Source: Candidatus Moraniibacteriota bacterium (GTDB lineage: Bacteria > Patescibacteriota > Minisyncoccia > CAIUEV01 > JAHKAQ01). Taken from it: 56,620 nucleotides of DNA. Of the stretch, positions 6,664-45,163 are shown piece by piece. Position 1 is the first letter of the stretch. The number at the start of each line of letters is the position of its first letter. A program made the position numbers and the translations under genes. The DNA lies in contig WJJI01000028.1 in the NCBI GenBank assembly GCA_014729795.1, forward strand, positions 1 through 56,620, written 5' to 3'. Under the pieces are notes generated by a model, which worked only from the letters and a program-made list of their open reading frames with translations, did no database searches and was not told where the DNA came from.

Positions 6664-6787
6664 TTATGACTTACGCGATTGGAAAAATTTTATAGAAAGT
6701 ACCAAGAATTTTGCAAGGCTTATTGAGTACACGTAGTCAAAAACCTCAAGATTTGCTCTAAAAATTTACCAATCGCGTAAGTCATAA
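6664..6787. repeat. Palindromic intergenic element, best copy
   Basis: Perfect 19-bp inverted repeat TTATGACTTACGCGATTGG (6664-6682) / CCAATCGCGTAAGTCATAA (6769-6787); inner flanks also near-complementary. Confidence 0.9.
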
Positions 6788-8902: not shown

Positions 8903-8986
8903 TGCCGGTGGTCGGATTCGAACCGACACGAACCGAAGTTCACGACATTTTGAGTGTCGCGTGTCTGCCAGTTCCACCACACCGGC
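8903..8986 (-). tRNA. tRNA-Leu(CAA)
   Basis: Reverse complement GCCGGTG...GTGGAACTGGCAGACAC..CGACA-CTCAAAA-TGTCG..GAAC-TTCG-GTTC..GGTTCGAATCC..CACCGGC-A; long variable arm; CCA not encoded. Confidence 0.93.
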
Positions 8987-10475: not shown

Positions 10476-10500
10476 GATAAATAATTATTATTAAATCTAT

Positions 10501-10575
10501 TATAAAGCGTATGAAGTAACCGTGACCAAAAACCGCAATATTTTCTCAAAAAATCCGCCAAAAGCGTAAGTCATA
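10501..10575. repeat. Half copy of the palindromic element (one arm)
   Basis: CGTGACCAAAAACC...CTCAAAAAATCCGCCAAAAGCGTAAGTCAT matches one arm of the 6664-6787 copy. Confidence 0.65.
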
Positions 10576-18059: not shown

Positions 18060-18127
18060 GAATTATACGTTAAAAAATTTTCATAATCATTGTTTAACGG
18101 TTCAAAAAATTACCAAACGTATAATTC
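18060..18127. repeat. Palindromic element copy
   Basis: 12-bp perfect inverted repeat GAATTATACGTT (18060-18071) / AACGTATAATTC (18116-18127), inner AAAAAATTACC. Confidence 0.75.
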
Positions 18128-25520: not shown

Positions 25521-25610
25521 AGTTTTTATTGAATTTAATGAAATACTTTTGCCCTTTTAGACAAATTTTAAAAAACATCAACTCGGGATTTTTTCAAAAA
25601 TTTTCTAAAA

Positions 25611-25658
25611 CTTATTGAATACACGTTTCCAAAAAAATTCAGCTTTTTCTGCAAATTT
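25611..25658. repeat. Degenerate copy of the palindromic element core, between yfcE and atpD
   Basis: CTTATTGAATACACGTTTCCAAAAA...CTGCAAATTTA vs CTTATTGAGTACACGTAGTCAAAAA...CTAAAAATTTA at 6719-6767. Confidence 0.6.
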
Positions 25659-31442: not shown

Positions 31443-31471
31443 TGTTTTAATTTATTTAATAATTATTTATA

Positions 31472-31557
31472 GGAATTACGCGTTTGAGGAAATTTTCCAA
31501 AAAACTCGCATGATCGAAAAGATTCAGACTCAAAAAATTTACCAAACGCGTAATTCC
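31472..31557. repeat. Palindromic element copy in the atpB-atpE spacer
   Basis: 15-bp perfect inverted repeat GGAATTACGCGTTTG (31472-31486) / CAAACGCGTAATTCC (31543-31557). Confidence 0.88.
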
Positions 31558-31592
31558 AAATTTAAGATCTATTAAAAAACCTAAATTCTTAA

Positions 31593-31641
31593 GAATTACC
31601 TGCTTGCAAAAATTTCAAAATTTATCCAAACGGCTAATTCC
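31593..31641. repeat. Second, degenerate copy in tandem in the atpB-atpE spacer
   Basis: GAATTACCTGCTTG / CCAAACGGCTAATTC imperfect inverted repeat; TTTATCCAAACGGCTAATTC matches the consensus arm. Confidence 0.6.
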
Positions 31642-31651
31642 TAATTTTAAA

Positions 31652-37999: not shown

Positions 38000-38113
38000 T
38001 ATGACTTACATGTTAAGGAGATTTTGCAAAAAATACCGGAATTTTTAAAGCGCATATTAAGCACACGTGAAAACCGCGGAGTTTTCTCTGAAAATTTACC
38101 AAGCGCGTAAATA
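38000..38113. repeat. Palindromic element copy between DUF3048 and holA
   Basis: TATGACTTAC...TATTAAGCACACGTGAAAACC...CTCTGAAAATTTACCAAGCGCGTAA, strongly similar to 6665-6780. Confidence 0.8.
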
Positions 38114-38172
38114 CTTGAAATTTACCCTAAAAAAAATTTATGTTTCGAGCTCTAATTGAAAATTTCCGATTC

Positions 38173-45045: not shown

Positions 45046-45163
45046 AAATTAGCGATAACATTTTTTTAACAAGTTAAGAAACTTCTCAAAAAAACAAAGC
45101 GACGTGACCAAGTTTTCATTTTTTGAAAAATTTTTTATCAAAAATACCCAACGCTTAATTCTT
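45046..45163. repeat. Degenerate palindromic element copy between rpiB and hxlA
   Basis: GCGACGTGACCAAG...ATCAAAAATACCCAACGCTTAATTC matches the consensus arm; left arm TTAGCGATAAC degenerate. Confidence 0.6.

Follow-up and report, generated by a model that had tools for sequence, protein, structure and literature searches.

The ERIC elements, a MITE family of the Enterobacteriaceae and Vibrionaceae, are about 127 bp long, and the RUP family of Streptococcus pneumoniae and the Correia/NEMIS family of Neisseria are associated with a TA duplication. Strand preference in such repeats can be modest: pneumococcal RUP, BOX and SPRITE elements are 61-63% leading-strand, which mirrors the coding bias (PMC3049150). 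REPINs need a RAYT, and their arms show compensatory changes (PMC3116915). The TIR families linked to TIRYT tyrosine transposases have terminal inverted repeats and form dispersed repeat families (PMC3733652). For IS608 and ISDra2 the chemistry takes place on the lagging-strand template, and the orientation of insertion follows replication (PMC5371812); several other IS families have a similar orientation bias, and Tn7 is targeted through TnsE and the sliding clamp (PMC5371812).

The window, that is, the whole stretch of DNA analysed here, is the 56,620-nt contig C19 of its source assembly (G000; 1.08 Mb in 50 contigs, 93% complete). It carries copies of a mobile repeat, a dispersed near-palindrome of about 118-122 nt that begins TATGACTTACGCGCTTAGG and ends CCAARCGCGTAAGTCATA, with the consensus TATGACTTACGCGCTTAGGAAAATTTTGTAAAAAATACCGGAATTTTTGTAAAGCGTATTGAGTATACGTGGTCAAAAACCGCGGAATTTTCTCTAAAAATTTACCAAACGCGTAAGTCATA. 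The terminal inverted repeats of the family are TATGACTTACGCG / CGCGTAAGTCATA; its ends are sharp, the sequences flanking them are unrelated, and the unit is short and non-coding. The features in the window are as follows (bit scores refer to a profile made from 19 copies in the genome).

6665..6786, + strand (canonical strand): best copy in the window, full-length, 122 nt; 101.9 bits, E=1.4e-29
6665..6682, + strand: left terminal inverted repeat of that copy, starting with TA
6769..6786, + strand: right terminal inverted repeat of that copy, ending with TA
10499..10575, + strand: copy without the left arm (profile positions 46-122); 41.1 bits
18060..18127, no strand assigned: short palindrome with similar ends, GAATTATACGTT / AACGTATAATTC; under the profile threshold, membership doubtful
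25549..25658, + strand: weak degenerate copy; 18.4 bits, E=9e-4
31471..31557, + strand: short variant, 86 nt, with ends GGAATTACGCGTTTG / CCAAACGCGTAATTCC and a mostly unrelated interior; 20.9 bits
31592..31641, + strand: second short palindrome, 50 nt, with the same type of ends, adjoining the 31471..31557 variant
38000..38115, + strand: near full-length copy with a decayed hairpin (RNA fold z = -0.9); 88.9 bits (match 38000-38112)

The best copy has perfect 18-bp terminal inverted repeats (TATGACTTACGCGATTGG / CCAATCGCGTAAGTCATA) within imperfect arms of about 50 nt (50 nt each, 78% complementary, with 24 nt between them), and its hairpin has an RNA fold z of -8.4. A first-pass annotation of the same DNA had drawn this inverted repeat at 6664-6787, where it is exact, and had joined to it the arms at 10555-10574, 31472/31557 and 38095-38113 as well as a core common to 6721, 38055 and 25612; the 19-copy profile places all of these in one family. 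Two other arms that it listed fare less well, as 45146-45163 is a lone arm that fails the profile threshold, leaving its membership unsupported, and the arm at 18109 is part of the 18060-18127 palindrome, a look-alike that fails the same threshold. The consensus that it proposed, TTTACCAAACGCGTAATTC, turns out to be that of a minority end type (31472-31557 and 31592-31641), the genome-wide end consensus being CCAARCGCGTAAGTCATA. The two palindromes of the minority type stand side by side at 31470-31643 and share the alternative ends GGAATTACGCG / CGCGTAATTCC; palindromes resembling this pair occur at G000:C9:34739-34816 (78 nt) and at G002:C30:30946-30997 (52 nt). A minus-strand tRNA gene at 8903-8986 is the only Rfam match of the window.

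A BLAST search of the genome with its own 124-nt element finds about 20 other loci, with identities of 71-79% where the match is close to full length. Over the 648 kb of copy-bearing contigs the 19-copy profile detects 46 copies, against none once that sequence is reversed, and the end motif has 37 matches (5 of them outside copies) against 0 in the control; on these two counts chance is excluded. Its statement that no copy lies inside a gene holds for the window, and genome-wide becomes 44 of 46 copies intergenic, although about 89% of the DNA is in ORFs. Its placement of the copies 3' of stop codons proves non-specific: the 22 strong copies flanked by two genes of one strand lie at a median of 39.5 nt from the stop codon upstream and 33.5 nt from the start codon downstream. 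In the contig C23 of G000, two copies (735-843 and 1225-1336) lie about 500 bp apart with a 115-aa ORF between them, and share a long near-identical core while having different ends; one of them may have arisen by duplication not long ago, or the two may have undergone gene conversion.

Outside the source genome the family is narrowly distributed. A second genus of the same taxonomic family (G002) has about 10 copies, seen as 12 matches to a sequence-only model at E<=1e-4, some of which are both strands of one copy, and seven other members of the order give no match to that model at E<=1e-4. Across 286 genomes of the class, matches come from G000 and G002 alone, apart from a single weak one elsewhere. 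Viral contigs do not match the end motif, and in 84,980 species genomes it has one exact match, in a Komeilibacteria MAG (MHKO01000027.1); the lone element-like arm there (1569-1587) adjoins a different GC-rich repeat, ATTGCGAGCGAGGCTACTGCCGAGCGAAG... One copy in the second genus (G002:C58:1342-1470) has its usual apex replaced by an unrelated GC-rich hairpin, CTCCGCCAATTAAGCGGAG.

The spacing of orthologous gene pairs, compared between genera (G000 against G002 and G001), shows the repeat as an insertion. Copy-bearing gaps in G000 are longer than their orthologues by a median of 127 bp (control gaps, -23 bp), an excess that insertion of a unit of about 122 bp predicts, and 22 of 25 orthologous gaps have no copy. 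For example, the orthologues of the 172-bp gap at C10:13988 span 16 and 25 bp, and those of the 156-bp gap at C12:15502 span 11 and 19 bp. Three G002 copies share their gap with a G000 copy, so that inheritance or a site preference may account for some of the sites. In such gaps the G002 copy resembles its G000 counterpart no more closely than it does other G000 copies, and one pair has opposite orientations, which leaves shared inheritance unproven.

TA is found at the left border of 14 of 22 copies and at the right border of 17 of 22, with no other flank consensus; given the palindromic ends, and with empty sites compared between genera and not strains, a TA belonging to the element and a TA from target-site duplication look the same. 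As single-stranded DNA, either strand of the consensus folds into a single long hairpin (z -6.3 and -7.6). Its two orientations can still be told apart, since about 12 positions differ between the arms. Copies diverge from one another by 20-30%. The leading strand has a small ORF (MTYALGKFLEKIPRFL...) that is open in the consensus; it is judged non-coding since stops or frameshifts break it in most copies and codon periodicity is slight. Promoter searches in the repeat found no conserved sigma-70-like site beyond what shuffles give.

The strongest regularity, overlooked in the first-pass annotation, is that orientation is locked to GC skew, taken here as a proxy for the direction of replication. 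Copies of one contig nearly always share one direction, and orientation matches the sign of the local GC skew for 43 of 46 copies (93%; p=5e-10), the canonical strand being the C-rich strand. Agreement is 32/34 for copies of at least 30 bits, 22/22 for those that score at least 60 bits and lie where the skew is clear, and 10/10 for the G002 copies at E<=1e-3. In most contigs the intergenic DNA and the genes on both strands carry the contig's skew sign, so the skew is replicative; 64% of genes run in the direction of the G-rich strand. Collapsing the sequences to purines and pyrimidines returns the same orientation call for 46 of 46 copies, and the orientation is therefore not a product of strand-biased transitions. 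The bias is alike from well-preserved to decayed copies (22/23, 10/11 and 11/12), which favours a bias that arose at insertion rather than through slow purging.

The directions of replication and transcription are largely confounded, because the 22 strong copies that lie between two genes of one strand all have leading-strand genes on both sides; none is found between lagging-strand genes, where 30% would be expected from tandem intergenic bp (p=6e-4). This distribution speaks for the main alternative, in which the element inserts either way round and selection then removes one orientation, through co-transcribed mRNA or through replication/transcription conflicts, since every one of the strong tandem copies points the same way relative to its flanking genes. 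ERIC and Correia elements can, moreover, expose RNase E/III sites, and the effects of ERIC on transcripts are orientation-dependent (PMC3049150, PMC10969869). A rule based on gene direction only, however, predicts flipped copies in the roughly 30% of tandem intergenic bp that lies between lagging-strand genes, where the strong copies are missing. Three weak copies do lie between lagging-strand genes, and these, the only clean separation of the two rules, follow the skew and not the genes; convergent and divergent gaps are skew-consistent in 13 of 15 cases, and do not separate the rules cleanly. Nor does the bias rise with the age of the copies. We consider selection of this kind unlikely; the avoidance of lagging-strand gaps by strong copies is nonetheless not accounted for by fork-coupled insertion alone.

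Other functions can be weighed against the same data. One reading in the first-pass annotation was a structured RNA, in the 3'UTR or between cistrons, that controls how stable the mRNA is. Such a cis-acting hairpin, amplified and kept for that function, would suit an intergenic element with one sense relative to transcripts whose best copies are strongly hairpinned (z -8.4 at 6665-6786). It seems very unlikely in view of the arms, where compensatory variation is no more frequent than in shuffles (paired cells 77.6% vs 78.3%; two-sided pairs 3 vs 4.6 expected), and of RNAalifold, which predicts zero consensus pairs; diverged copies fold like shuffles (z -0.9 and +1.2), there is no stop-codon bias, most orthologous gaps have no copy, and Rfam matches the tRNA but not the repeat. 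The REP/RAYT version of its other reading, a REPIN-type element moved by a RAYT (HUH Y1) transposase, would explain an extragenic inverted-arm hairpin oriented with replication, as single-strand transposition would give, but is highly improbable: the Y1 transposase (PF01797) is absent from both carrier genomes, G000 and G002, no GTAG-tagged REP units are present, and the arms lack the compensatory changes described for REPINs (PMC3116915). Strand polarity in two genera would also be expected of a polar signal for chromosome architecture or recombination (KOPS/Chi/AIMS-like), selectively kept on one replication strand. That idea is hardly credible for copies that are 20-30% different and decay freely, that are absent from the orthologous gaps of close relatives and from almost every other genome in the class, and whose end motif is not a frequent stand-alone word (5 of 37 matches outside copies). 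Integron attC sites were rejected, as the copies are dispersed and not in cassette arrays, and so was the Rickettsia RPE, as the copies are intergenic and not in-frame within genes.

The non-autonomous, MITE-like reading agrees with the dispersed sharp-ended copies, their unrelated flanks and TA borders, and the shorter empty orthologous gaps; the observation in the first-pass annotation is partly confirmed and its interpretation partly supported. The family probably represents old non-autonomous MITE/ERIC-like elements, inserted in a fork-dependent orientation by a trans-acting helper that is lost or undetected. A transposase supplied in trans would have copied the repeats into intergenic gaps, where the copies would now decay in place, and a helper active at replication forks would, by analogy, have fixed their orientation at insertion. 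Such a helper could use the ssDNA hairpin on the lagging-strand template, like IS200/IS605, or could contact the fork or the sliding clamp, as is reported for Tn7/TnsE and several other IS families. Because searches of G000 found no DDE_3/IS630, Y1, DDE_Tnp_1, rve or reverse transcriptase (RVT_1) (the genomes are 93-94% complete), we infer the mechanism by analogy; G002 has no IS630 DDE_3 and no PF01797 Y1 protein, and the end motif is absent from the vicinity of its transposase loci. Tentatively, we suggest that a miniature element with a near-perfect hairpin, classical TIRs and TA borders may undergo strand-obligate transposition at the fork, through a hairpin on the lagging-strand template and by means of a putative Patescibacteria helper. 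We know of no description of strand-obligate fork transposition in TIR-type MITEs.

The near-absolute strand polarity suggests that replication forks can determine which way round a TIR element lies, and the orientation of the repeat can mark the direction of replication for unordered contigs of this lineage. The literature searched, which gives partial coverage, contains neither a description of this repeat family nor any MITE family from Patescibacteria.

Among known systems, those of the IS200/IS605 family (IS608, ISDra2) share with the repeat an orientation that follows replication (by the GC skew proxy here), but their hairpins are subterminal, they lack terminal inverted repeats, and their Y1 transposase is absent here. 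REPINs and the REP-RAYT system share the inverted-arm hairpin, the extragenic location and the non-autonomy; the repeat differs in having no RAYT, no GTAG tags and no covariation, and in its 122 nt with true terminal repeats. The TIR families linked to TIRYT are likewise dispersed and bounded by terminal inverted repeats, but PF01797 is absent from both carrier genomes. RUP, which is linked to IS630-Spn1, and Correia/NEMIS are, like the repeat, intergenic inverted-repeat MITEs of about 100-150 bp with TA borders, and no RUP-like IS630 helper (DDE_3) is found in G000 or G002. ERIC resembles the repeat in being near-palindromic, intergenic and non-coding, in its tens of copies, and in having no known helper in its hosts, a likeness of architecture between repeats whose hosts belong to different phyla. 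A lock to the replication strand is not reported for ERIC in the literature searched, unlike the repeat here, and RUP, BOX and SPRITE reach 61-63% leading strand where the repeat reaches 93%. The repeat is a new family, and it is new chiefly for this strand lock.
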